Positions 94 through 12,592 of a DNA stretch of 64,000 nt are shown here, piece after piece. The translations under genes were made by a program, and so were the position numbers. Origin of the DNA: Fodinicola acaciae (lineage in GTDB: Bacteria > Actinomycetota > Actinomycetes > Mycobacteriales > HKI-0501); the NCBI RefSeq assembly GCF_010993745.1, contig NZ_WOTN01000002.1:310001-374000 (forward strand), written 5' to 3'. The notes beneath the pieces were generated by a model. That model was not told the origin of the DNA. It was given only the letters and a program-made list of their open reading frames with translations, and did no database searches. How positions within the stretch are numbered: position 1 is the first letter of the stretch; each line of letters starts with the position of its first letter.

Positions 94-112
94 TTCTCAG
101 GCAGTTCTGAGG
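94..112 (+). promoter_or_regulatory. Putative response-regulator operator upstream of htrA
   Basis: The site reads TTCTCAGGCAGTTCTGAGG: two TTCTNAG half-sites repeated directly with an 11-base period, also readable as CTCAG-N6-CTGAG. The 11-base period is typical of OmpR/PhoB-class response regulators. A near-identical site lies in front of the two-component genes at 7349-7367. It sits 22 bases before the htrA start. The binding protein is inferred. Confidence 0.5.
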
Positions 113-134: not shown

Positions 135-1472
135 ATGAGCGAGCACACCGATCCCCAGCAGCCGTGGCAGCCGGCGGGCGAGCCGGAAGCCGGTGGTGAC
201 GCGCCGACGCGCCCCGACGAGTCCGCGGCCGTGGACGACACGTACGCCTTCGCGACACCGGCCTATGCGCCGGCCGTTGGCGCCGCCTCCATCGGCGGCC
301 CTCCACCCGTACCCCCGGCCGGCGCCTTCGGTCCGACGCCGCCGCCTCCGGACGGCAGCCGCCGCCACCGGTTTCCGCTGATCGCGGTCGCCGTCGTGGC
401 CGCGCTGGTCACCGGGGGCGTGGCCGGCGCCGGTGGAGCCGCCGCGGTGTTGTACGCGACGGGGTCCACCGGCTCGCCGGTGGTGTCGGCCGCGGCGCCG
501 GTCAGCGGCTCGACCACTCCGCAGCAGCTGATCTCCAAGATCGCCGCCGCGGTCAGCCCCAGCGTGGTCTCGATCAAGGTCACCACCAGCCAGGGCGGCG
601 ACGAGGGCTCGGGCATGGTCGTGACGGCCGACGGCAACATCGTCACCAACAACCACGTGGTCGCCGACGCGGCCAACGGCGGCGGCACGATCACCGTCAC
701 GTTCGCCAACGGCAAGTCCGCGAAGGCCACGATCGTCGGCCGCGACCCGACAACCGACATCGCCGTGATCAAGGTCAGCGGCGTCTCCGGGCTGCAGCCG
801 GTCACCTTCGTCAGCAGCTCGTCGCTGCACGTCGGCGACACGGTGGTCGCGATCGGCAACCCGCTCGGCCTGGAGGGCTCGGTCACCTCCGGCATCGTCA
901 GCGCGCTGCACCGCAGCGTCACGCTCGGCAGCGCCCAGCAAGGTGGCGGCGGCCGCTACCAGCAGCAACAGCCGAGCGAGACGGCCTCGGTAGCCAACGC
1001 CATCCAGACCGACGCGGCGATCAACCCCGGCAACTCCGGCGGCCCGCTGGTCGACGCCAACGGCCGCGTCGTCGGCATCACCACGGCCATCGCGTCGGTC
1101 GGCGGCAACAGCGGGTCGCAGGGCGGCAACATCGGCGTCGGCTTCGCCATCCCGGCCGAGACCGTACAGTCGGTGGCCAACCAGCTGATGGCCGGCAAGC
1201 AGCCGTCGCACGCCAACCTCGGCGTCTCGGTCACGGACACGTCGAGTGGCGGCGCCCAGGTGACCCAGATAACGTCGGGGAGCCCGGCGGCCAACGCCGG
1301 GCTGAAGGCCGGGGATGTGATCACCAAGGTGGGAGACACGGCGATCAGCGGCGCCGACGACCTCGGCGCGGCCGTGCGCTCGCACAACCCCGGTGACAAG
1401 GTCACGCTCACCGTCGTACGCGGCGGCCAGACCATCTCGGTCCCGGTCACCCTCGGCAGCGCGACCGGCTGA
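135..1472 (+). CDS. HtrA/DegP-type membrane-anchored serine protease with PDZ domain
   Basis: 445 residues. A proline- and acid-rich cytoplasmic N-terminus (about 1-78) precedes one membrane segment (about 81-106), so the catalytic part faces outward. The trypsin-like domain carries His174 (NNHVV), Asp208 (TTDIAVIKV) and Ser301 (GNSGGPLV), so the triad is complete. A PDZ domain follows (about 361-440). Family members degrade or refold damaged envelope proteins. Residues 268-281 form a Gly/Gln-rich loop inside the protease domain. The start ATG follows a weak AGGACGG. The putative operator upstream links it to the two-component system at 7.4-9.4 kb, as MprAB and pepD are linked in mycobacteria. 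Confidence 0.93.
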   Translation: MSEHTDPQQPWQPAGEPEAGGDAPTRPDESAAVDDTYAFATPAYAPAVGAASIGGPPPVPPAGAFGPTPPPPDGSRRHRFPLIAVAVVAALVTGGVAGAGGAAAVLYATGSTGSPVVSAAAPVSGSTTPQQLISKIAAAVSPSVVSIKVTTSQGGDEGSGMVVTADGNIVTNNHVVADAANGGGTITVTFANGKSAKATIVGRDPTTDIAVIKVSGVSGLQPVTFVSSSSLHVGDTVVAIGNPLGLEGSVTSGIVSALHRSVTLGSAQQGGGGRYQQQQPSETASVANAIQTDAAINPGNSGGPLVDANGRVVGITTAIASVGGNSGSQGGNIGVGFAIPAETVQSVANQLMAGKQPSHANLGVSVTDTSSGGAQVTQITSGSPAANAGLKAGDVITKVGDTAISGADDLGAAVRSHNPGDKVTLTVVRGGQTISVPVTLGSATG

Positions 1473-1702: not shown

Positions 1703-3283
1703 TCAGTCCGTGGCGGGGACCGGGTCGACGGCTTCGACCAGGGGTCGCGCGGCGGTCTCGATGCCGGTGCGCCAGATGGCGAATGCCGCCAGCGCGACCG
1801 GCACCAGGCCGGCCAGCGCCAGCGTCGTCAGGCTCGGCGAGGCCGCGACGATGAGCGGACCGGCCAGGCCACCGGCCTTGCTGGCGGCGGCGACCAAGCC
1901 GCTGCCGGTGCCGCGCAGCGCGGTCGGATAGATTTCCGCCGCATACGGCGAAAGCATCGCGATCATGCCACCGGCGCCGATCAGCAGGACGGTCAGCATG
2001 GCGGTCAGCGGGCCGGCGGTCGGCCACTGTTCTGGCCGCAACACGACGAAAAGCGCGAGCACGACGACAGTCGCCATCGCGTAGACGATGATCGACCACC
2101 GGCTGCTCCACCGCGCGTAGAGGAAAGCCGCGAGTCCGGTCGCCGGCACGGTGAGCAGTGACGCGGTGAAGATCATCGACGGCGCCGACGCGGCCATGCC
2201 GGATCCAGCGAGGAAAGTCGGCAGGAACGTCACGAATCCCCAGTTGACCAAGCCCCAGCCGAGGCCATAGAGCAGGACGGCGACGGTACGCCACCGATAT
2301 CGCGGCACGAGCAGCCCGCCGATTTTCCCGGCGAAACTGCGCCGCACCAGCGGAGTGACCGGAGCCGGCGCCGTTTTCATGCCTGGGACACCGGAAACCA
2401 GCTGGATGCCGTACGTGCGCATCACCCGCTCGGCCTCCGCGTTGCGCCCGATCGACAGGAGGAACCGCGGCGACTCGGGGATCCAGACGCACAGCACCAG
2501 CAGCAAAAGTCCGGTCGGGAAGTTGAGGACCCAGAGGAATCGCCAGCTGAGCAACGGAACCAGCGCGGCGGCCGCGCCACTGGCGACCAGATAGCCAAGT
2601 GTGGCACCGAGACCGCTCTGCAGCACCAGCAGCCAACCGCGATAACGCGACGGGACTGACTCGGACATCAGCGCGTAGACGGTGGGCAGCATGCCGCCGG
2701 CCGAGGCGCCCATGATGAAGCACATCACCAGATTCCACTCGAAGGCCGGCATGAAACCGCAGATCGAGGTGCCGACATAGAGCAGCGAGGAAAACACGAT
2801 CGTCGAGCGTCGGCCGATCACATCCGCGACATATCCCCAAATCAGCGAGCCGACGACCGTGCCGAACAACGCGGTCAACGGAAAGGTCGCGACGATCGCG
2901 GTGCTCAGGCCGTATTCCTCGCGCATGCCGGGCAGCACGAAACCGAGTGAGGCCGGCTTCATGGTGTCGACCACCAGGCCGACGGTCAGCAGCACCGCCA
3001 GGACGACGTGCGCACGCGAGAGCTTCGCGCCGTCGATCGCGGCGAAGCGGTCGGCAGCACTCACCGCGCCCTCGATTTTTTGCGCCCGGCCGTACGAGAT
3101 CAGGCTCCAGCCGGCCACCGCGAGGCCGCCGATGATGAGCGACATGCCGATGCTCATCGGTGTCCCCATCGCCATGCCGGCCATCATGAAATGGTCGGGC
3201 GCGGCCATCACGTAGTCCGGCACGTGCAGGCCGACGCCGGCGATGATCGCGGCGGCACCGAGCCAGACCCCGTAGTTCTTCAC
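1703..3283 (-). CDS. MFS transporter with extra N-terminal membrane segments
   Basis: 526 residues and the last gene of a four-gene operon. Its GTG start shares four bases (GTGA) with the stop of the P450 gene. Two hydrophobic segments (about 6-25 and 43-64) and a short cytoplasmic stretch precede the MFS core, which begins near residue 90. The core shows the A-loop GYVADVIGRRS and a PESPRFL motif as in sugar/metabolite porters. It probably exports or imports the substrate or product of the three oxidative enzymes encoded upstream. The substrate is unknown. Confidence 0.85.
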   Translation of the reverse strand: MKNYGVWLGAAAIIAGVGLHVPDYVMAAPDHFMMAGMAMGTPMSIGMSLIIGGLAVAGWSLISYGRAQKIEGAVSAADRFAAIDGAKLSRAHVVLAVLLTVGLVVDTMKPASLGFVLPGMREEYGLSTAIVATFPLTALFGTVVGSLIWGYVADVIGRRSTIVFSSLLYVGTSICGFMPAFEWNLVMCFIMGASAGGMLPTVYALMSESVPSRYRGWLLVLQSGLGATLGYLVASGAAAALVPLLSWRFLWVLNFPTGLLLLVLCVWIPESPRFLLSIGRNAEAERVMRTYGIQLVSGVPGMKTAPAPVTPLVRRSFAGKIGGLLVPRYRWRTVAVLLYGLGWGLVNWGFVTFLPTFLAGSGMAASAPSMIFTASLLTVPATGLAAFLYARWSSRWSIIVYAMATVVVLALFVVLRPEQWPTAGPLTAMLTVLLIGAGGMIAMLSPYAAEIYPTALRGTGSGLVAAASKAGGLAGPLIVAASPSLTTLALAGLVPVALAAFAIWRTGIETAARPLVEAVDPVPATD

Positions 3284-4656
3284 TCGTGTCCTCCGACGGA
3301 TTGAGCCGTCTCGTGGTCGGCGAAATACCGTCCGGTGAGGCGCTGGCGCCGCGCGTCCCACACCATGTACGTGCCGAGGAAGAGCTGGCTGACGCTGCGC
3401 GTGACGTCCTCCGCGCGGTCGCGCAGCTGCTGAGCCGCCAGCCGCGCGACCGGCTTTGCCCTGTCTTCCACCGGCACCAGTACGCACGGGCCGCGGTTGG
3501 GGATCGACCGGACGTGCGTCGCCGACGAGTGGAACCGCACGGCCGCCAGCATTTCGCGTACGACCACCCGCATCGTCAGCGGCGCGATGCCTTTCGCCGG
3601 ACAGGGCCGGTTCTGCGTGACGCCAAACGGGATGTGGTTGGCCGTACGCGCGGACAGGTGATTCCACCGGTCCGGATCGAACGTGTGCGGGTTTTCGAAG
3701 CCGCTGGCGTGAAAATCGGCGTAGCTGAAACACAGCACCGTGCCGGCCGGCAGCGTCAGCTCCGGCGTCACAGCGATGTCGTCGGTGGTGATCCGGTGTG
3801 CGATGCCAAACAGCGGATAGCTGCGAAACGTCTCGTCCATGACGTGGTCGAGATAGCGGTCGTCGTCCGGATTGTCGCGGAGCCGCTCCTGGATCTCCGG
3901 ATTTCGTGCCAGCACCAGGAAAAGATGCGTCATCGCCTCGGACATCTGCACGATCGCGGTGTTGAAGAACGTGCCCTGCAGAAACCAGGCCTGTTCCTCC
4001 GGCGTCAGCGCGGCCGGCAGCGGATGCGGAATGTCGTCGTTGTCGATGGCCTCGCGCAGAAACCGCGTCAGGCGGTCGCGTACGTCCATGTGCCGCAGTC
4101 CGGTGCATTTCAACGCGGTGATGACATCGTTGGCGTTGTCGACGATCAACTTTCGCGTGTGTGCGGTCGCCGGCTTCTCGAAGACCAGTTGGTGGTAGAA
4201 ATCGGCCCAGATCGGCATCATCAGCTCGCGCAGCCGGACCGTACGAGCTCCGGTGACGGCCAGTTCGCCGAGATAGTCGCGTACGACCCTGGCCAGGACG
4301 CGCTCCACCTCGCCTTTCGGCCGCGCCAGGATTTTCCTTGTCGTACGCGCGACATCGTCGTATCGCGCGCCGGGCTCGAGGTGTTCCTGGTGCACCTGCG
4401 GACCAGGTGCCAGCCAATACCAGAACAGGTCGGACAGCGCGGCGCCGCGGCTGCGGCCGTTGGCGGCCGGATGCGCGTACAGCTGGCGGAAATGCTCGAT
4501 CCCGATCTCCGGACCCGGCACGAGCACGCCGTCGGGTCCGTTGATCCGCGCGAAAATCCGTACGCGCAGGCTGATCACGATCTTCGGCAGCCACCACGGC
4601 AGGCTCACTACCAGGAGCAGCACCGCGATGGCGACGAGCAACGCCGGCATCATCAC
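3280..4656 (-). CDS. Cytochrome P450, membrane-anchored and atypical
   Basis: 458 residues. A hydrophobic N-terminal segment (about 4-22) followed by WWLPK suggests a membrane anchor, which is unusual for bacterial P450s. P450 signatures are the ExxR pair Glu275/Arg278 (DETFRSY), the FDPDRW stretch (326-331) and Cys352 in PFGVTQNRPCPAKG. That loop is one residue longer than the usual FxxGxRxCxG. The I-helix region (about 226-246, QGTFFNTAIVQMSE) lacks the usual acid-Thr pair used for oxygen activation. About 60 residues follow the usual P450 end. The GTG start overlaps the oxidase stop by one base; ATG at 4653 or 4650 is equally possible. Confidence 0.85.
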   Translation of the reverse strand: MMMPALLVAIAVLLLVVSLPWWLPKIVISLRVRIFARINGPDGVLVPGPEIGIEHFRQLYAHPAANGRSRGAALSDLFWYWLAPGPQVHQEHLEPGARYDDVARTTRKILARPKGEVERVLARVVRDYLGELAVTGARTVRLRELMMPIWADFYHQLVFEKPATAHTRKLIVDNANDVITALKCTGLRHMDVRDRLTRFLREAIDNDDIPHPLPAALTPEEQAWFLQGTFFNTAIVQMSEAMTHLFLVLARNPEIQERLRDNPDDDRYLDHVMDETFRSYPLFGIAHRITTDDIAVTPELTLPAGTVLCFSYADFHASGFENPHTFDPDRWNHLSARTANHIPFGVTQNRPCPAKGIAPLTMRVVVREMLAAVRFHSSATHVRSIPNRGPCVLVPVEDRAKPVARLAAQQLRDRAEDVTRSVSQLFLGTYMVWDARRQRLTGRYFADHETAQSVGGHE

Positions 4657-5726
4657 TATTCTCCGGACGGCAGGCGCAGGAGGTCGGCGCCGAGGTCGGT
4701 CAGTGCGTCATAGCCACACAAAACCATCGCGTGCTCCAGCTCAGCACACAGGATGTCCAGCACCTCGGCGACGCCTTTTTCGCCGTCCACGGTCAGTCCC
4801 CAGATCACCGGCCGGCCGATCGCCACCGCGGATGCGCCGAGCGCGAGCGCCTTCAACGCGTCGGTGCCGCGCCGGATGCCGCCGTCCAGCAACACCGGAA
4901 TGCGGCCGTCGACGGCACGTACGACCGCGGGCAGCGCCTGGATGGTGGCCGGTGCCGTGTCCAGCTGCCGGCCGCCGTGGTTGGATACGACGACCGCGGC
5001 CGCGCCGGCCTCGACCGCCAGCCGGCCGTCGTCCGGATGCAAGACGCCCTTGAGCACGACCGGAAGATCGGTGATCGACCTCAGCCATTCCAGGTGCCGC
5101 CAGGAAAACTCCGGCGACATCCGGATCGGCCGTACCACCCCGTCGGCGTCGCGCAGGTTTTCGCAGGCCAGACCGTCGGGAAGTTGATGGAAGTCGTTGC
5201 GGTCGTCGCGTTCGTGCCGGCCGAACACCGCGGAGTCGACGGTCAACACCAGCGCGTTGCAGCCGGCCGCCTCGGCGCGTCGTACGACCGACTCGGTGAA
5301 GCCGAGATCCGGCTGCAGATAGAGCTGGAACCACAGCCGCGGTGTGCCGGTTTCGGCGGCACGCAAGGCGACTTCCTCGATGGCGATGGTGGACGCCATC
5401 GACGCGATCATGATCGCGCCGGCCGCGGTCGCGGCACGCGCGGTCGCGATCTCGCCGTCAGGATGGGCGATCCGGTGGAACGCGGTCGGCGCGATCATGA
5501 TCGGCGTGGCAGCCCGGCAGCCGAGCAACTCGACCGCCAGGTCCGGCTGCGCCGCGCCGCGCAGGATTCTTGGCAGCAAAGCGATCCGCCGGAAGGCCGC
5601 CTCGTTTTCGGCCAGCGTGATCTCGTCGCATGCGCCGCCGGCGAAATAGTCGTAATGCGCCGGCGCCAGCGCTTCTCTTGCTGGTGCCTCGAAATCTCGT
5701 ACGGTCAGCAGCCGGCGGCTGCTCAT
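4656..5726 (-). CDS. FMN-dependent 2-hydroxy-acid oxidase (glycolate/lactate/mandelate oxidase family)
   Basis: 356 residues, full length for the family. It oxidises a 2-hydroxy acid to the 2-oxo acid, using FMN in a TIM barrel. Visible are YDYFAGGA near the N-terminus, WFQLY (132-136), LTVDS (161-165), Lys226, the active-site stretch SNHGGRQLD (His250, Arg253), and the phosphate loop LLDGGIRRGTD with IGRP. ATGA overlaps the stop of the flavoprotein gene upstream. Homologues include lactate dehydrogenase LldD, hydroxymandelate oxidase and MftD. No mycofactocin precursor or maturase is in view, so I do not assign it to that system. Confidence 0.9.
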   Translation of the reverse strand: MSSRRLLTVRDFEAPAREALAPAHYDYFAGGACDEITLAENEAAFRRIALLPRILRGAAQPDLAVELLGCRAATPIMIAPTAFHRIAHPDGEIATARAATAAGAIMIASMASTIAIEEVALRAAETGTPRLWFQLYLQPDLGFTESVVRRAEAAGCNALVLTVDSAVFGRHERDDRNDFHQLPDGLACENLRDADGVVRPIRMSPEFSWRHLEWLRSITDLPVVLKGVLHPDDGRLAVEAGAAAVVVSNHGGRQLDTAPATIQALPAVVRAVDGRIPVLLDGGIRRGTDALKALALGASAVAIGRPVIWGLTVDGEKGVAEVLDILCAELEHAMVLCGYDALTDLGADLLRLPSGE

Positions 5727-7297
5727 CGCCGGTCGCCGGCCGTGGCCGGCTCTCCGAGCTGTGCGTCCAGGAAGGCGGCGAGTGGTCGCCGGTGCGTGAC
5801 CTCGCGAGCCCAGTCGTTCTCCAGGTTCTCGTCCATCCGGTGCATCGCCACGAGCTCACCACCGCGCCAGTGCCGGATCACCGGATGCAGATAGCGCTGG
5901 TCGTGGCCGGCGTCGCCTTCGCGTGCCTTGCCGGCGTCGATGTCGAACGGGTCGATCTCGTCGTGACCTTCGCCGTATTCCAGCGTGACAACGAAATACT
6001 CGCGTGCGTCCTGGACCAGCGGCGAGTCCGGCACCAGGTCGACCGGCAGCTCCTCGTAATAGGACGCGGCGCCGTCGTTGCCAATGGTCAGCAGGTCACC
6101 GATGAAGGCGAACTGCTGCCACATCGCCGAGCTGCGGTTGACGCGCGCGATGATGGCGTCGGCCAGCGAGAGACCGGAGACAGGCTCGACCGTACGAGCC
6201 GGCCACGCGGTGTTTTCGTAGCGCTCGTCCAGAATCCGGCTCAGCGAGCGCGCGCCGTAGCGGAAGCCGTGGATGAACGCGCTGGTCGACTTCTTGAAGT
6301 CGCGCATCTGCGTGATGGTGCCGACGAAGTAGAGATCCGGCACGTTGACCGACTCCCAGGCCGGTGTCTGGTCCGGAAACCGGCCCGAGATGGCCAGCGC
6401 CGGCCGGCAGTCGTCGGCGAAAATCGAGGCGTCGAAACGAAAACCGGTGCAGAAAATGACCCGGTCGTAGGCGCCCTGCATGTGCACGTCACGTCGTGCG
6501 TAATGGATGTGGACGCGGAGTCCGTCGCCGTCGCGCTCGATTTTCTCGACCGCACCGTCCAGCACGGCGTTTTGCAGCTTGAGCTGGTAGGTGTCCAGGA
6601 AGTTGGCGTTGATCGCCCGCAGGTGACCGACGAAATGCGTACGCCACGCGAGCTTCTGCGAGTGCGGTCCGGCGACGTGGATGACCGCGGCCTTCTCGAT
6701 AAGGTTTTCCGCCGTCTCGTACGCCGAGTTGCCCTTGCCGACGATCAACACGCGCTGGTCGGTGAAATCGTCCGGGTCGACCGAGACGTCCTCGTACTGC
6801 TCGGCCAGCTCCACCCCCGGGATGTCCGGCGTGTTCGGCTTGCTGACACCGGTCGCCATGACCAGCCGGCGCGACCGGATGCGGTCACCGTTGGCCGTGC
6901 TGACAACGAAATCTCCGTCGCGCTCGATCCGGACGACCTCGCTGTCGTAGCGGACCCGCAGCCCGAACTCGGCGACGAAGTCGGCGAGATAGCGGACGAA
7001 ATCGTCCGGATGCGGCCAGAACTTCTCCGAGTAGTTCCTGAACAGCATCTTCTCGGTGTCGCTGAGCAGCGAGTTCCAGTCCATCCGCATGTTCAGCTCG
7101 GGGTCGGTCCAGCCGGTGTGCACCTTGTTGACGGAAATCATCTTGCGGTGGCGCGGAAAAGTCGTGAAGAACGTGCCGGGACCGGCGCCGGCTTCCAGGA
7201 CCAGGTAGTCGCGGCCGGCGCGTTCCAGGTAGTAGGCGAGCTGCAGGCCGGCCGGGCCGGCACCGATCACCAGGTAGTCCACGGACTGTTCTGACAC
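5723..7297 (-). CDS. FOXRED2-like FAD/NAD(P)H-dependent oxidoreductase
   Basis: First gene of the four-gene operon; 524 residues from the GTG at 7297. I chose that start over the more distal one at 7318 because AGGAGG lies eight bases upstream. Two dinucleotide folds are visible: the FAD loop GAGPAGLQ at the N-terminus and a second loop VGKGNSAYE mid-protein, as in flavin monooxygenases. The stretch TTFPRHRKMISVNKVHTGW resembles the animal FOXRED2 family and its bacterial relatives. The C-terminal third (from about 390) is a domain of unknown role. Expected to hydroxylate or oxidise a small molecule that the following oxidase and P450 handle next; this is inference. Confidence 0.85.
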   Translation of the reverse strand: MSEQSVDYLVIGAGPAGLQLAYYLERAGRDYLVLEAGAGPGTFFTTFPRHRKMISVNKVHTGWTDPELNMRMDWNSLLSDTEKMLFRNYSEKFWPHPDDFVRYLADFVAEFGLRVRYDSEVVRIERDGDFVVSTANGDRIRSRRLVMATGVSKPNTPDIPGVELAEQYEDVSVDPDDFTDQRVLIVGKGNSAYETAENLIEKAAVIHVAGPHSQKLAWRTHFVGHLRAINANFLDTYQLKLQNAVLDGAVEKIERDGDGLRVHIHYARRDVHMQGAYDRVIFCTGFRFDASIFADDCRPALAISGRFPDQTPAWESVNVPDLYFVGTITQMRDFKKSTSAFIHGFRYGARSLSRILDERYENTAWPARTVEPVSGLSLADAIIARVNRSSAMWQQFAFIGDLLTIGNDGAASYYEELPVDLVPDSPLVQDAREYFVVTLEYGEGHDEIDPFDIDAGKAREGDAGHDQRYLHPVIRHWRGGELVAMHRMDENLENDWAREVTHRRPLAAFLDAQLGEPATAGDRR

Positions 7298-7348: not shown

Positions 7349-7367
7349 TTCTCAGAACTCTCTGAGG
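7349..7367. promoter_or_regulatory. Putative response-regulator operator between the redox operon and the two-component genes
   Basis: TTCTCAGAACTCTCTGAGG: two TTCTNAG-like half-sites 11 bases apart, matching the site upstream of htrA at 94-112. It lies 49 bases before the regulator start and 52 bases before the divergent flavoprotein start, so it could serve autoregulation, the redox operon, or both. Confidence 0.5.
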
Positions 7368-7415: not shown

Positions 7416-8117
7416 GTGGTCGAGATGTCCCGGCAACCGGACGCCACCGGCTGTCCTGACCAGCCAGGTCGGGTGCTGGTGGTCGACGACGATGCCGATT
7501 TGCGGGTGATGCTGGCCGAGTTGTTGGCCGGAGCGGGTTATCGGGTCGACCAGGCCGCGGACGGCCAGAGCGGCCTGCATTTGGCGCTGACGCGCGCATA
7601 CCAGGTGATGGTGCTCGACCGTGGACTGCCGGCGCTGGACGGACTCGACCTGCTCGCGAGGCTGCGCAGGCAGGGTTTCGACGTGCCCGTGCTGATCCTG
7701 ACCGCCCGCGGCTCGGTGGCCGACCGGGTCGCCGGCCTGGACGCCGGTGCCGAGGACTATCTGGTCAAGCCGTTCGACATCGACGAGTTTTTGGCTCGCG
7801 TACGCGCGTTGTGGCGCCGGCATCTGCGCGGCGCGACCGAGTTGCCGATCGGCCGTGGCCTGCTCGATGTCGCGCAGCGGGTGGTGCGTACGCGCACCGG
7901 CGACGTGGCGCTGTCCGGTCGCGAGTTCGACCTGCTGCACCTGTTGGCGCGCCATCCCAATGTCGTCTATCAGCGCGCCGATCTGCGCGAGCAGGTTTTC
8001 GCCGACACGGCGTCGGAGTCGATCGTGGACACCTACGTCTACTACCTGCGGCGAAAACTCGGCCGGAAGGTGGTGCGTACGGTCCGCGGCACCGGTTATC
8101 GCCTCGGTGAGCTTTGA
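7416..8117 (+). CDS. OmpR/PhoB-family response regulator
   Basis: 233 residues. The receiver domain (about 18-130) has the acidic pocket VVDDD, the phospho-acceptor Asp68 (VMVLDRGLPALDG) and the conserved Lys in YLVKPFD. The winged-helix DNA-binding domain follows (about 145-230; VDTYVYYLRRKL and TVRGTGYRL). GTG at 7416 is used here; ATG at 7425 is an alternative. It precedes the kinase gene. The paired 11-base sites at 94 and 7349 are its best candidate targets. Confidence 0.92.
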   Translation: MVEMSRQPDATGCPDQPGRVLVVDDDADLRVMLAELLAGAGYRVDQAADGQSGLHLALTRAYQVMVLDRGLPALDGLDLLARLRRQGFDVPVLILTARGSVADRVAGLDAGAEDYLVKPFDIDEFLARVRALWRRHLRGATELPIGRGLLDVAQRVVRTRTGDVALSGREFDLLHLLARHPNVVYQRADLREQVFADTASESIVDTYVYYLRRKLGRKVVRTVRGTGYRLGEL

Positions 8118-8172
8118 ACGCGGAATTCCGTTGCGCCGTGTTTGTTGTCGTAGGCCGATGGTGGAGGGACAG

Positions 8173-9411
8173 ATGAACCGCGGTGACCAACGCGTGCTGC
8201 GCCGCGCGAGATGGGTGTTGACGGCTCAGCTGGCCGGTGCGGTCACGATCGTGGTGCTGTTGATGGGGGCGCTGTCCTTCGGCATGATGCTGGCCGGCCA
8301 GCATTCCGACGCGGAGCGCGACCTGCGCGCGTACGTGGTGCGCGGTGACATCGAACATCCGCCGCCGTGCGTGTGGCTGTTTTCCGAGCAGGGCGTTGTG
8401 GCGCGGCGTACGCCGAGCGCGCCGGTCGCGCTGCCGGTGCGCTCGGCGATGGACGAGGTCGCGCGTACCGGTGTGCTGCAGGTCCGTGAGACCACGGTCG
8501 GCGGGATCGACTATCTGATCCGCACCGAGCGGCGCGGCACCACGGTCGTGCAGGCCGTTCTCGACCTGCGTTATCAGGTGCAGGAGCGGCAGCGGCTGAC
8601 GACCGCTCTCGGCATCGCCGAGCTGGTCGGCCTGTTCGGCGCGGCCCTGGCCGGCCTGGTGCTGGCGCGGCGCGCGATGGCGCCGCTGGAGGAGGCGCTG
8701 GACCGGCAGAGCCGGTTCGTCGCCGACGCGAGCCACGAGCTGCGTACGCCGCTGACGCGGTTGCGCGTACGCGCGCAGTTGCTGGCGCGAAAGCTCTCGA
8801 GCGATGCCGAGGCGCGAAAACTCGTCGCCGACACCGACGACATGGCCTCGGTGATCGACGACCTGTTGCTGTCGACGCAGGTCGGCGGCTCTGCCGGCGG
8901 ATTTCCGGTCGACCTGGAGCTGGTCGCGTCGTCGGTGTTGTCCGCCGAGGCCGAGCGCGCGCAGTGTTCCGGTGTCTCGCTGGAACTGGTCGCCGATCCG
9001 TCGGCTCGCTATGTCGTACGCGGCATCCAGCCGGCGCTGCTGCGTGTCGTGTCCGCGCTGGTGGACAACGCTTTGGGCCACACGACCGCCGGCGGCCGGA
9101 TCGTCGTGGCGCTGGAGCGGACGGACCGGCACGTGCGACTGTCCGTACGCGACACCGGCATCGGCCTCGATCCGCGCGACGCGAGCCGCATCTTCCGCCG
9201 ATTCGCGCGCGGGCCGCACCGCGCCCGCAACTTCGGCCTCGGCTTGGCGCTGGTGCGTGAGGTCGTACAAGGCCACGGCGGCTCCGTCACCGCCACCGGC
9301 GAGCCCGGCCACGGTGCGGTCTTCACGGTGTCGCTGCCCGCGCCGTCGCGGACCGACGGCCCGGCGCCGCTGCCATCACCACGCCGCGGCCTGCGCGCCG
9401 TACGTCCCTGA
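8173..9411 (+). CDS. Sensor histidine kinase
   Basis: 412 residues from ATG 8173, preceded by GGAGGGA. There are two membrane segments (about 16-41 and 147-166) enclosing a roughly 105-residue extracytoplasmic sensor with a single Cys. The phospho-acceptor is His188 in ASHELRTPL. The ATPase domain shows LVDNALGHT (N box), RDTGIGLD (G1) and NFGLGLALV (G2). It is the partner of the upstream regulator. The inferred stimulus is envelope stress, because the shared operator also precedes htrA. Confidence 0.92.
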   Translation: MNRGDQRVLRRARWVLTAQLAGAVTIVVLLMGALSFGMMLAGQHSDAERDLRAYVVRGDIEHPPPCVWLFSEQGVVARRTPSAPVALPVRSAMDEVARTGVLQVRETTVGGIDYLIRTERRGTTVVQAVLDLRYQVQERQRLTTALGIAELVGLFGAALAGLVLARRAMAPLEEALDRQSRFVADASHELRTPLTRLRVRAQLLARKLSSDAEARKLVADTDDMASVIDDLLLSTQVGGSAGGFPVDLELVASSVLSAEAERAQCSGVSLELVADPSARYVVRGIQPALLRVVSALVDNALGHTTAGGRIVVALERTDRHVRLSVRDTGIGLDPRDASRIFRRFARGPHRARNFGLGLALVREVVQGHGGSVTATGEPGHGAVFTVSLPAPSRTDGPAPLPSPRRGLRAVRP

Positions 9412-9601: not shown

Positions 9602-10792
9602 TCAGGAGTCGACGGTTTGGCCGAGCTCGGTGGCGATCGAGGTGATGGCCTGGCGGTCGATCTTGCCGAGTGGCAGGCGTGGCAGTTCTGGTACGACGGC
9701 GATGGCGCGTGGTGCGGCGTGCGGGCCGAGCAGGCTGCTGACGTGTGCGCGTACGACGGCGAGGGTCGGGGCCGGTTCGTCGGCGTGCGGGGTGATGACG
9801 GCGATCACGACCTGGCCCCACTCGGGGTGGCCGACACCGGTGACCGCTGACTCCGACACGCCCGGACACGAGGCGAGCGCGGCTTCGACGGCGGCCGGTG
9901 CGACGTTGACGCCGCCGGTGATGATCACGTCGTCGGCGCGACCGATGACCTCCAGGCCGCCGGTCGCCGACCACTGTCCGACGTCGGAGGTGCGGAACCG
10001 GCCGCCGGCCAGCACCTCGGCGGTCAGGTCGGGCCGCAGCCGATAGCCGCTGAACAGCACCGGACCGCCGATGCTGATCCGGCCGGAGGGCGCCAGGTCG
10101 ATGTCCACGTCGGCGAGTGGCTGTCCGTCGTAGACGCAGCCGCCGCAGGTCTCGGTCATGCCGTACGTGGTGACGATCGGGATCCCCGCGTCGGTGGCCT
10201 GCTCGCGCAGCGCGATCGGAGCCGGAGCGCCGCCGAGCAGCACCGCGTCGACGCTGGCCAGCGTGGTGACGGCGAGGCCGCCGGCGTCGAGTACGCGGCG
10301 CAGCTGTGTCGGGACCAGGGACACGTATCGCCGGCCGCCGTTCATCGCGTCCAGCGCGGCGGCCAGGTCCAGTGGCCGGAAGCCGGCGCGCAGGTCCATC
10401 AGCGCCGGATCGGTGCCGGCGAGCGTGGCGCGTACGAGCACCTGCAGGCCGGCGATGTGCGTCGCCGGCAGTGCCAGCAGCCATTTCCCCGGACCGCCGA
10501 GAAAGGCGTGTGTCGCGTTGGCGGACGCGCGCAGCGCGCGAGCCGACAACAGGGCCGCCTTGGGCTCGCCGGTCGATCCGGAGGTCGGTACGACCAGCGC
10601 GATCTCCTCGTCGGAGTGTTCCAGCCGTTGGTCCGGCCGGATCGCCGACAGCGCGCGGTCCTGCTCGACCCGGTCGGACGGCAGTGCCGCGAGCGCCGGG
10701 CCGCCGGCCAGCGCGGCGGCCAACGCTGGCAGCAGCGAACGCCGTATCTCGTCCGGACCCGCCGCCGTCAACGTGATCAGCCGCCTCTGCAC
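9602..10792 (-). CDS. menE: o-Succinylbenzoate-CoA ligase
   Basis: 396 residues, an ANL-superfamily AMP ligase that makes OSB-CoA in menaquinone synthesis. The adenylate loop TSGSTGEPKA is at 70-79; TYGMTETCGG, GRADDVIITGG and the C-terminal catalytic Lys in LPLGKIDRQ follow. It is shorter than general acyl-CoA ligases, as expected for actinobacterial MenE. The GTG start lies six bases after a TAGCCT -10 box (10804-10799), so the transcript looks leaderless. It stands alone on the minus strand, facing the toxin-antitoxin pair. Confidence 0.93.
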   Translation of the reverse strand: MQRRLITLTAAGPDEIRRSLLPALAAALAGGPALAALPSDRVEQDRALSAIRPDQRLEHSDEEIALVVPTSGSTGEPKAALLSARALRASANATHAFLGGPGKWLLALPATHIAGLQVLVRATLAGTDPALMDLRAGFRPLDLAAALDAMNGGRRYVSLVPTQLRRVLDAGGLAVTTLASVDAVLLGGAPAPIALREQATDAGIPIVTTYGMTETCGGCVYDGQPLADVDIDLAPSGRISIGGPVLFSGYRLRPDLTAEVLAGGRFRTSDVGQWSATGGLEVIGRADDVIITGGVNVAPAAVEAALASCPGVSESAVTGVGHPEWGQVVIAVITPHADEPAPTLAVVRAHVSSLLGPHAAPRAIAVVPELPRLPLGKIDRQAITSIATELGQTVDS

Positions 10793-10874
10793 CCCCTCAG
10801 GCTAACCGCAAGCAGCCTTCCCGCGGATGCGGTGAGTCAGGTCCACCCGGCCGGGCCACCCCTTCTCTTGCAGA

Positions 10875-10892
10875 TGTCACTTCAATGTGACA
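10875..10892. promoter_or_regulatory. Inverted-repeat operator of the toxin-antitoxin pair
   Basis: TGTCAC-N6-GTGACA is a perfect inverted repeat ending ten bases before the antitoxin start. Phd/YefM antitoxins normally repress their own promoter, so this is the likely autoregulatory site. Confidence 0.55.
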
Positions 10893-10902
10893 CCATCAGG
10901 TC

Positions 10903-11274
10903 ATGGCGAGGGATCATGGAGATGACACGCAGCCACGTGTCGACATCGTCTATCCAGCGTTTTCGATCGGCATCCGAGATCTCCGGCACGACACCGCCGG
11001 CCTGCTGAAACGGGTCGAGGAAGGTGAGGAAATCGTGATCACCAACCGTGGCAGAGCGGTCGCCGTGCTGCGGCCGCTGACCGCCGAGGAACGTCGCCAG
11101 GAGGAGCTCGTGGAGAAAGGCATCGTGACCATGCCGGAGAGCGGCGGCAGCGGCACGGGAGCGGAAATCCTGGCCGTGATGGAGAAATATCCGCCGGTCG
11201 GCCGAGAGCGCGGGCAGCACGAGATCGACGACGCTCTCGACTACGTGCGCGCTGACCGGGATCCGGCCGGATGA
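10903..11274 (+). CDS. Phd/YefM-family antitoxin
   Basis: 123 residues. The Phd/YefM DNA-binding and dimerisation region is visible from about residue 24 (IGIRDLRHDTAGLLKRVEEG, then EIVITNRGRAVAVLRPL). A loose C-terminal half should wrap the toxin. About 20 residues precede the usual family start, and the ribosome-binding site is weak. ATGA overlap with the PIN toxin gives coupled translation. The pair is wedged between menE and menB. Confidence 0.85.
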   Translation: MARDHGDDTQPRVDIVYPAFSIGIRDLRHDTAGLLKRVEEGEEIVITNRGRAVAVLRPLTAEERRQEELVEKGIVTMPESGGSGTGAEILAVMEKYPPVGRERGQHEIDDALDYVRADRDPAG

Positions 11275-11681
11275 TCTATTTCGACACGTCCGCGATCGTG
11301 CGGCTGGTGATTCCGCACGACTGGACGCGGTCCCTGCGGTCCTACCTCGGCCGGCTGGCGAACCTGCGATGGGTGACGAGCGTGATCGCGGTGGTCGAGA
11401 CCAATCGCGCGCTGATGCGTGAAGGTGCGACCGAGCGCGAGTTGGCGATCGGTGGTCGCTATCTGGCCGAGTTCCGCAAGGTCGGCGTCACCGACGAGGT
11501 CGTCCAGTCAGCGATCGCGATTCCGAGCCGCACGCTGAAATCGCTCGACGCGATCCACGTGGCGAGCGCGCTCGAGGTCGGCGCGGAGGTCCTCGTCACG
11601 TACGACAAAACCATGATCAAGGCGGCCCGCGACGCCGGCCTGCGCACCGCCTCGCCCGGCCTCGACGAGAGCCGATCCTAG
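11271..11681 (+). CDS. VapC-type PIN-domain ribonuclease toxin
   Basis: 136 residues, full length for a PIN toxin. The acidic metal-binding set is visible: Asp5 (YFDTSAIVRL), Glu in ETNRALMRE, Asp in SLDAIHVASAL, and Asp in TYDKTM. VapC toxins cleave tRNA or rRNA when the antitoxin is lost. Its stop codon overlaps the stop of the convergent menB gene, leaving no room for a terminator between them. Confidence 0.88.
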   Translation: MIYFDTSAIVRLVIPHDWTRSLRSYLGRLANLRWVTSVIAVVETNRALMREGATERELAIGGRYLAEFRKVGVTDEVVQSAIAIPSRTLKSLDAIHVASALEVGAEVLVTYDKTMIKAARDAGLRTASPGLDESRS

Positions 11682-12592
11682 AAATACCAGGGAAATTTCG
11701 ACCAGTCGGGCGTGCGCTTCTCCAGGAAGGCGTCCCGGCCCTCGACGGCTTCCTCGGTCATGTACGCCAACCGGGTCGCCTCGCCGGCGAACACCTGCTG
11801 ACCCATCAGGCCGTCGTCGACCAGATTGAAGGCGTATTTCGCCATTCGCTGCGCGGTCGGCGACTTGCTGTTGATCTCCGCCGACCATTCCAGCGCGACC
11901 TTCTCCAGGTCGGCATGCGGCACGACCGCGTTGGCTGTCCCCATCCGATACGCGTCCTGCGCGGAATATTCGCGCCCCAGAAAGAAAATCTCCCGGGCGA
12001 CCTTCTGACCGACCTGCCGCGCCAGATAGGCCGAGCCGTAACCGCCGTCGAAAGAACCGACCGCGGTGTCGGTCTGCTTGAAACGCGCGTGCTCGGCGCT
12101 GGCGATGGTCAGGTCGCAGACCACGTGCAGGCTGTGTCCACCGCCGGCGGCCCAGCCGTTCACCAGGGCGATCACCACCTTCGGCATCATCCGGATCAGC
12201 CGCTGGCATTCCAGGATGTGCAACCGGCCGGCGCGCGCCGGGTCGACCGTCTCGCCGCTGACATAGCGATAGCCGTCGCGGCCTCGAATCCGCTGGTCAC
12301 CGCCGGAGCAGAAGGCCCAGCCGCCGTCCTTGCGCGACGGCCCGTTGCCGGTCAGCAGCACGCAGCCGACGTCGGAGGTCATCCGCGCGTGGTCCAGCGC
12401 ACGATAAAGCTCGTCGACCGTCTCTGGCCGGAAGGCGTTGCGCACCTCTGGCCGGTCAAACGCGATGCGTACGGTCGGACCGTCCTGACCGTCGATCACC
12501 TGGCGGTGGTAGGTGATGTCGGAAAAGTCGAATCCCCGCACCTCGCGCCACGCGTTTGTATCGAAGATCTCAGACACTGATGAGGCAGCCAC
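11678..12592 (-). CDS. menB: 1,4-Dihydroxy-2-naphthoyl-CoA synthase
   Basis: 304 residues, crotonase fold; cyclises OSB-CoA to DHNA-CoA. MenB hallmarks are the long insert with WAFCSGGDQRIRG, NGWAAGGGHSLHVVCDLTIAS, GSFDGGYGS and the C-terminal tail ending WSKFPWYF. The GTG at 12592 lies seven bases after the -10 box TAGGCT (12605-12600), so the transcript looks leaderless. It is divergent from menC-menD. Confidence 0.95.
   Translation of the reverse strand: MAASSVSEIFDTNAWREVRGFDFSDITYHRQVIDGQDGPTVRIAFDRPEVRNAFRPETVDELYRALDHARMTSDVGCVLLTGNGPSRKDGGWAFCSGGDQRIRGRDGYRYVSGETVDPARAGRLHILECQRLIRMMPKVVIALVNGWAAGGGHSLHVVCDLTIASAEHARFKQTDTAVGSFDGGYGSAYLARQVGQKVAREIFFLGREYSAQDAYRMGTANAVVPHADLEKVALEWSAEINSKSPTAQRMAKYAFNLVDDGLMGQQVFAGEATRLAYMTEEAVEGRDAFLEKRTPDWSKFPWYF

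Follow-up and report, generated by a model that had tools for sequence, protein, structure and literature searches.

ERFAD (FOXRED2) is a human endoplasmic reticulum (ER) protein for which, according to a 2026 sponge paper, no enzymatic reaction has been characterized (PMC12833800). That paper describes a sponge relative, OroF, that is 43% identical to human ERFAD and in vitro brominates pyrrole-2-carboxylate and pyrrole amides with flavin adenine dinucleotide (FAD), NADPH, and KBr; with KCl, no chlorinated product was detected. The partners of OroF include two cytochromes P450, a ligase, and an acyltransferase that forms amides (PMC12833800), and its bromination is the sole biosynthetic reaction of an ERFAD-like enzyme that we found in the accessible text of the open-licence literature. 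Here, we describe a four-gene operon of the actinobacterium Fodinicola acaciae that encodes an ERFAD/FOXRED2-like flavoprotein (here FOX). It occupies positions 1703-7297, on the minus strand, of the window, by which we mean the whole 64,000-nucleotide stretch analyzed (NCBI RefSeq assembly GCF_010993745.1, contig NZ_WOTN01000002.1, positions 310,001 to 374,000).

We propose, with a probability of about 0.5, that this operon supplies the tailoring and transport functions of a small, regulated pathway that leads to a small oxidized, probably aromatic, amide independently of nonribosomal peptide synthetases (NRPSs) and polyketide synthases (PKSs). In the step order we presume, an ANL-type ligase resembling amide bond synthetases, unlinked to the operon in this genome, would activate a carboxylic acid and join it to an amine; in some lineages the acid would be p-coumaric acid supplied by a tyrosine ammonia-lyase-type enzyme. 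FOX, using FAD and NAD(P)H, would oxidize or halogenate the aromatic acid or the amide, a flavin mononucleotide (FMN) enzyme would oxidize a 2-hydroxy or N-hydroxy carboxylate with release of H2O2, and a membrane-anchored P450 would perform a further oxidation that is possibly H2O2 driven. A transporter of the major facilitator superfamily (MFS), replaced elsewhere by a CPA2 antiporter, would move the acid, the product, or a counter-ion, and an adjacent two-component system would switch the operon through an inverted repeat before FOX.

The four genes, each open from start to stop, are as follows.

5723..7297, minus strand: FOX, ERFAD/FOXRED2-like FAD/NAD(P)H flavoprotein, 524 amino acids (aa) (Pfam, open reading frame check, AlphaFold2 model, provisional human ERFAD reference)
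4656..5726, minus strand: FMN-dependent 2-hydroxy-acid oxidase, 356 aa (Pfam, aligned relatives)
3280..4656, minus strand: membrane-anchored cytochrome P450, 458 aa (Pfam, alignment, predicted fold)
1703..3283, minus strand: MFS transporter, 526 aa, aromatic-acid/H+ symporter-like, with an N-terminal extension (Pfam, NCBIfam)

The genes overlap by 4 bp (FOX/FMN, 5723-5726), 1 bp (FMN/P450, 4656), and 4 bp (P450/MFS, 3280-3283), bearing out the original prediction, made from the sequence alone, that four overlapping genes form one operon. Pfam and NCBIfam agree with its family labels, the Pfam E-values being 1.8e-48 for FOX (Pyr_redox_3), 2.2e-124 for the FMN oxidase (FMN_dh), 1.2e-16 for the P450 (p450), and 2.5e-29 for the MFS protein (MFS_1); this run used slightly longer FOX and MFS versions than the final gene calls. 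FOX starts at a GTG codon with the ribosome site GAGGAGGAG 6 bases ahead, and third-position GC content across the operon is 0.84 to 0.87. Between the window genome (8.86 Mb) and Fodinicola feengrottensis, nonsynonymous divergence (dN) is 0.136 to 0.144 and synonymous divergence (dS) 0.66 to 0.97, calculated on the whole MFS gene and on open pieces of the other three; the four genes are under purifying selection. In F. feengrottensis (L025, 8001-12042), frameshifts split all three enzyme genes (FOX, FMN, and P450), and MFS is open. The gene count reported for that genome is high, at 11,978 (PMC7232338), which suggests that the split genes reflect sequencing errors.

To place the operon among other bacteria, we collected loci from a scan of named genomes (29 loci), a class sample, a phylum sample, and a plasmid-collection search that returned one Nonomuraea replicon. 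Counts below refer to the 38 loci with the operon P450, window included, which are not independent (seven are from Lentzea); a remote match (L036) and a locus from the same record as L025 (L107) were left uncounted. FOX was found at E<=1e-80 in 18/394 genomes of the class sample, five of which carry only a 45-47% identical FOX type, and the P450 in 6/396 genomes of the phylum sample. The P450 forms a discrete family there, with all six matches at E<1e-200 and nothing else reaching 1e-30. FOX, FMN, and P450 are contiguous in 35 of the 38 loci, which come from actinobacteria and one Novosphingobium, a degree of cross-lineage conservation that takes the operon far beyond chance. The exceptions are a sulfotransferase gene between FMN and P450 (L021), an inverted P450 gene (L073), and a locus without the FMN gene (L083). 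The presence of the trio in Novosphingobium rosa (L017) and in two genomes of the phylum sample (L090 and L091) is consistent with transfer.

All 38 loci contain FOX and 37 contain FMN; a McbA-like ANL ligase is linked in 27, a response regulator with its kinase in 27, a tyrosine ammonia-lyase-type gene in 13, a second FOX in 12, a sulfotransferase in 6, and a DUF6282 gene in 4. The transporter is a CPA2 antiporter in 25 loci and an MFS protein in 5, with neither counted in 8; a sixth MFS locus, L090, was missed because its MFS-FOX frame is cut. Conservation of the gene set holds for the enzyme trio, with the order kept in those 35 loci, and not for the transporter. The recurrence of sulfotransferase genes suggests that some products may be sulfated; glucosinolate-like sulfation was discarded as an idea, since Sulfotransfer_4-type genes are linked only in these 6 loci. 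In L090 (4193-9849), a sulfate adenylyltransferase/APS-kinase-like gene (assigned by eye) and a sulfotransferase-like gene adjoin the locus.

FOX consists of two Rossmann-type domains and a C-terminal domain (about residues 365 to 515). Its FOXRED2-like label stands: FOX is 38% identical to human ERFAD over 564 columns, C-terminal domain included (E 5e-122), with a provisional human reference not drawn from a database record. Against the same provisional reference, 59 bacterial FOX rows are 34-43% identical, and 76 of 90 near-invariant columns agree. Unlike animal ERFAD, the window protein has neither an ER signal peptide, beginning directly at the Rossmann fold (VSEQSVDYLVIGAG), nor a C-terminal KEEL. 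The conserved cysteine pair of thioredoxin reductase (TrxR) is absent from FOX, where only columns 283 and 297 are mostly cysteine; human ERFAD is described as devoid of the glutathione-reductase cysteine pair (PMC5751730). An AlphaFold2 model of a 531-aa FOX version (predicted local distance difference test score, 82.9) has, over residues 10 to 370, the fold of the group that includes YpdA, flavin-containing monooxygenases (FMOs), and TrxR. A comparison with a viral fold library gave nothing informative.

In the FOX tree (59 rows; L010, whose gene was miscalled, was omitted), the second FOX copies form their own clade with 100/99 support; three short FOX rows, two ligase rows, and one P450 row had been dropped before alignment. 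FOX genes also occur in loci without the operon P450 (L026, L028-L031, and L076-L082), where relatives adjoin other carboxyl-activating enzymes: NRPSs in L029-L031 (by Pfam on the L029 protein), an ATP-grasp enzyme in L028, and a GCS2-type ligase in L076-L080. In Kordia and Snuella (L029, 1-17516; L030; L031), the relative lies near NRPS genes, a CmlA-type beta-hydroxylase gene, and SbnA/SbnB-like genes (by eye). The 45-47% subfamily in L076-L080 is convergent with a GCS2/YbdK-type carboxylate-amine ligase gene and flanked on its other side by genes that, by eye, are SnoaL-like and AhpD-like. Streptomyces NRRL S-337 (L028, 5890-15000) combines FOX with a CPA2 antiporter, a carbamoyltransferase-like gene (by eye), the ATP-grasp gene, and another P450-like gene; neither an FMN gene nor the operon-type P450 is present in that locus.

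The prediction that no scaffold-making enzyme is present is not supported, given the ligase and ammonia-lyase genes linked at other loci and an unlinked ligase gene in the window genome. The window genome has one close relative of the ligase, at C4:118827-120314 and 60% identical (the next best match is 32%). At E<=1e-90, the ligase was found in 12 of the 388 class-sample genomes drawn for it, and these are the same 12 that carry a full-length main-clade FOX (58-62% identity, or the genome's own copy) among the 394 drawn for FOX; the ligase is linked in 11 of them, the window genome being the twelfth. In a separate test of 13 genomes, 2 had the ligase at this threshold (F. feengrottensis and Amycolatopsis iheyensis). 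Its nearest solved structures are 6sq8/6h1b (E 7e-72, 246 bits; the next entry is at 8.8e-52), which we take to be McbA. The McbA structure is described with five chains, which matches these entries (PMC6282839). A GKPDK motif is present in 25 of 27 ligase rows, and one regular expression, N/Q-A-x-x-x-Y-x-G-x-I-E, matches a loop in 17 of the 27, presumably the equivalent of the "GG-N" motif of coenzyme A (CoA) ligases; one row (L025, 4511) is really MenE.

Following the kinase gene, window positions 9602-12592 contain a MenE gene, a pair that by eye resembles VapBC (one gene antitoxin-like, the other encoding a PIN-like toxin), and a gene judged by eye to be MenB-like. The MenE gene (9602-10792) was rejected as the pathway ligase, since it scores above the cut-off of an o-succinylbenzoate-CoA ligase equivalog (NF005877).

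All 13 linked ammonia-lyase genes occur together with the ligase, and 12 of the 13 with a second FOX; this lyase-FOX-ligase module also stands alone (L064 and L066). The methylideneimidazolone (MIO) motif and the tyrosine-selecting His-Leu pair are kept in 14/14 sequences aligned to 2o6y/2o78 (the L072 copy is outside this set). This linkage makes a route from tyrosine through p-coumarate to an amide a reasonable reading for those lineages, at loci other than the window. No NRPS or PKS core was seen: the largest called gene in window positions 1-22000 encodes 565 aa, and 8 long proteins examined from the P450 loci included no NRPS or PKS. A match to ApyO had raised the idea of a ribosomally synthesized and post-translationally modified peptide; it was set aside, as no precursor or maturase was noticed among the recurrent neighbors, where small genes were not searched systematically.

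The FMN oxidase has the carboxylate-binding and catalytic residues of PF01070 2-hydroxy-acid oxidases. K226, H250, R253, and D164 are invariant in 34/34 aligned relatives, R173 is found in 33 and Y136 in 32 of them, and the position of Tyr24 (spinach numbering) is Phe in 16. The P450 has the heme motif FGxxxNRPCPA; across 20 rows, C352 is invariant and the ExxR pair (E275/R278) nearly so. The I-helix acid-alcohol pair is absent from these rows, the positions being held by N232 (nearly invariant) and T233 (invariant). An Arg-Pro pair marks the I helix of CYP152 peroxygenases; in the window protein, the I-helix segment, LQGTFFNTAIVQMSEAM, contains no Arg, and P450BSbeta is one among many fold matches. 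The neighboring hydroxy-acid oxidase makes H2O2-driven catalysis an attractive possibility. One N-terminal hydrophobic segment fits the predicted membrane anchor. At the other end, the P450 model (window 3280-3450) has two long helices with conserved residues (403-438 and 440-454), beyond the 26-400 range matched by solved P450s.

Aromatic-acid/H+ symporters such as PcaK are the closest match to the MFS protein, at scores under the curated cut-offs. The extra helices foreseen for it correspond to an N-terminal extension with one extra hydrophobic segment in the window and two in L024 and L025. A loop rich in His and Met within the extension (window 3120-3283), HVPDYVMA...HFMMAGMAMG, has similar counterparts in L024 and L025 and may bind metal. 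In L091, a single uninterrupted frame of 976 aa encodes both MFS and FOX, and the same holds in L090 as far as its contig extends, tying transport to FOX.

The regulatory features of the window, which extend to an HtrA-like gene beyond the far end of the operon, are as follows.

7350..7366, no strand: putative inverted-repeat operator TCTCAGAACTCTCTGAG, located in the divergent promoter between FOX and the regulator (sequence match)
7416..8117, plus strand: OmpR-family response regulator, divergent from the operon; the true start may be 7473 (Pfam/NCBIfam, neighbor clustering)
8158..9411, plus strand: histidine kinase, partner of the response regulator (neighbor clustering)
95..111, no strand: further operator-like site with one mismatch, located 23 bp ahead of the HtrA-like gene (genome scan)
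135..1472, plus strand: HtrA/DegP-like serine protease that carries a PDZ domain and is probably co-regulated (Pfam, NCBIfam)

The repeat, TCTCAGA-N4-TCTGAG, lies 52 bp from the FOX start; its pattern, derived from the window sequence, was subsequently tried and refined on other loci. In 747 kb of sequence from the 38 loci there are 18 exact sites, of which 17 precede a FOX gene by no more than 150 bp. With one mismatch and three half-site arrangements permitted, the number rises to 29. Of these, 26 precede a FOX gene, and their distance to the beginning of the aligned FOX segment is steady, at 22 to 29 or 65 to 77 bp; the remaining three comprise the HtrA sites of the window and L025 and a site in L015 between lyase and ligase, where the second FOX is missing. 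A site precedes FOX in 24/27 loci with a linked two-component system and in 0/11 without one. The exact operator occurs once in the whole window genome, with one-mismatch sites at two further places, one of them before HtrA, as also in F. feengrottensis. Exact sites were found in 6/21 genomes with the operon versus 0/10 without it. One-mismatch sites occur in 7 of those 10, including one in a histidine kinase-HtrA locus of G033, a genome with no FOX at E<=1e-80, which suggests that the operator probably belongs to a stress-type regulator family adopted by the pathway. Two exact Lentzea matches (L157 and L158) and a one-mismatch site in G097 (L159) were dropped as regulon extensions, lying beside genes with no recognized pathway link.

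Several observations weigh against the proposed amide pathway. G009, a fragmentary genome, carries part of a FOX without any ligase match, and in the 13-genome test the P450 is present in 8 of the 11 ligase-negative genomes (three Actinomadura, Actinoallomurus, Spongiactinospora, Embleya, Novosphingobium, and G434). Read against McbA, the ligase alignment does not keep Glu400 and Asp201, and Glu221 and Asp463 have acidic counterparts; its sequence remains compatible with CoA ligase activity. The Nonomuraea locus (L083) lacks an FMN gene, and none was detected in the rest of its record at E<=1e-60; the FMN step is thus not universal. Two loci, L020 and L024, have a linked two-component system without the operator. 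FOX, finally, is identified by its sequence as a full-length bacterial relative of ERFAD against a provisional human reference, and by its modeled fold it is nearer to the YpdA reductase (VIA-align, residues 10 to 370: Z 27.6, root mean square deviation 3.1, 315 aligned) than to FMO (Z 25.7, 2.8, 314 aligned).

This last point bears on a doubtful alternative, that FOX is an NAD(P)H-dependent reductase, donating electrons to the P450 or acting on disulfide or nitro groups, and neither an oxygenase nor a halogenase. Its structural neighbors are headed by YpdA and also include TrxR and TrxR-like ferredoxin reductases, FOX shares every P450 locus, and human ERFAD is reported to be able to reduce a prodrug (PMC5751730). 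However, FOX also appears in loci without the operon P450, a second FOX copy accompanies lyase and ligase, FOX has no TrxR-type cysteine pair, and its sequence profile search places FMO enzymes first (79.5 bits versus 68.6 for YpdA). The regulatory data raise a different reading, which we consider unlikely, that the operon is an envelope-stress response with a detoxifying or repairing role. An ERFAD-like flavoprotein, HtrA, the MprAB/CssRS-like two-component system, and the one-mismatch HtrA sites in both Fodinicola genomes and G033 would suit it, and the system and HtrA resemble MprAB-PepD. HtrA, however, is near the operon solely in Fodinicola among the loci examined, the exact repeat was confined, in the genomes compared, to those with the operon, FOX is sporadic in distribution, and the lyase, ligase, and sulfotransferase partners fit biosynthesis better.

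A catabolic operon, in which the MFS protein would import an aromatic or hydroxy acid for degradation by FOX, the FMN enzyme, the P450, and a CoA ligase, seems to us very unlikely. The PcaK-like transporter would fit it, as would the aldehyde-dehydrogenase-like and DUF6282 genes that follow the P450 in Actinomadura; against this, no ring-cleavage or beta-oxidation gene is found among the identified recurrent neighbor clusters (c1-c7, c14-c16, c20, and c21), and the coumarate-feeding lyase and McbA-like ligase point to synthesis. A cyanogenic or aldoxime route, FMO followed by P450, is possible, but the ligase, the lyase, and the OroF parallel fit it less well than they fit the amide pathway. 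The original prediction had also suggested a host- or diet-derived acid, for which we found nothing in support; one species of the genus, Fodinicola, is described as coming from Acacia roots (PMC7232338).

If the amide pathway is right, the locus represents a conserved pathway that needs no assembly line and includes a discrete P450 family, and its operator could serve for induction. The apparently cytosolic bacterial relatives of ERFAD, in a compact regulated operon, offer tractable material for finding the chemistry of the family and allow a test of whether halogenation is general within it. A bolder version, which we regard as improbable, is that FOX is the bacterial branch of a new, ERFAD-type halogenase class and that the operon is central to the making of a so far unreported family of aromatic amides, halogenated or oxidized, by uniting an amide synthetase, the ERFAD-type enzyme, a peroxygenase-like P450 fed by the FMN oxidase, and a dedicated two-component system. 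Were it true, human ERFAD would descend from, or share chemistry with, a small-molecule oxygenase or halogenase.

As had been predicted, no described pathway matches: the accessible open-licence literature yielded no characterized cluster with this gene set and nothing on DiatB, on FOXRED2 in biosynthetic gene clusters, or on ERFAD in Streptomyces. Among partial parallels, the MprAB-PepD and CssRS-HtrA stress systems share the OmpR-type pair and an HtrA gene with a matching operator, whereas the main target here would be a biosynthetic operon. The 4-hydroxymandelate and glycolate oxidases (PF01070) share the fold and catalytic residues of the FMN enzyme and differ at the Tyr24 position and in their partners. 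To our knowledge, the McbA cluster contains no FOX, FMN oxidase, or operon-type P450. McbA, of marinacarboline biosynthesis, is the nearest solved relative of the pathway ligase and shares with it GKPDK and, as we read the alignment, the absence of a CoA-ligase-type His at the Asp201 position, but works in a beta-carboline pathway (PMC6282839). The indole aldoxime pathway of SCO7467/SCO7468 likewise involves an actinobacterial FMO that acts on an aromatic amino acid and is encoded in a very small cluster; set beside FOX by its published description only, it differs in having a prenyltransferase partner and in that SCO7468 makes an aldoxime through N-hydroxylation (PMC3617294). By analogy, OroF is the closest functional parallel, showing what the family can do rather than the FOX reaction itself. 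The sponge oro bundle for oroidin differs in being from an animal, with scattered genes and a CoA ligase plus separate acyltransferase, and its description, in the part available, mentions no FMN oxidase or two-component system. As the nearest parallel found, it shares with the operon and its partners an ERFAD-like flavoenzyme, an acid-activating ligase, amide formation, P450s, and duplicated ERFAD-like genes.

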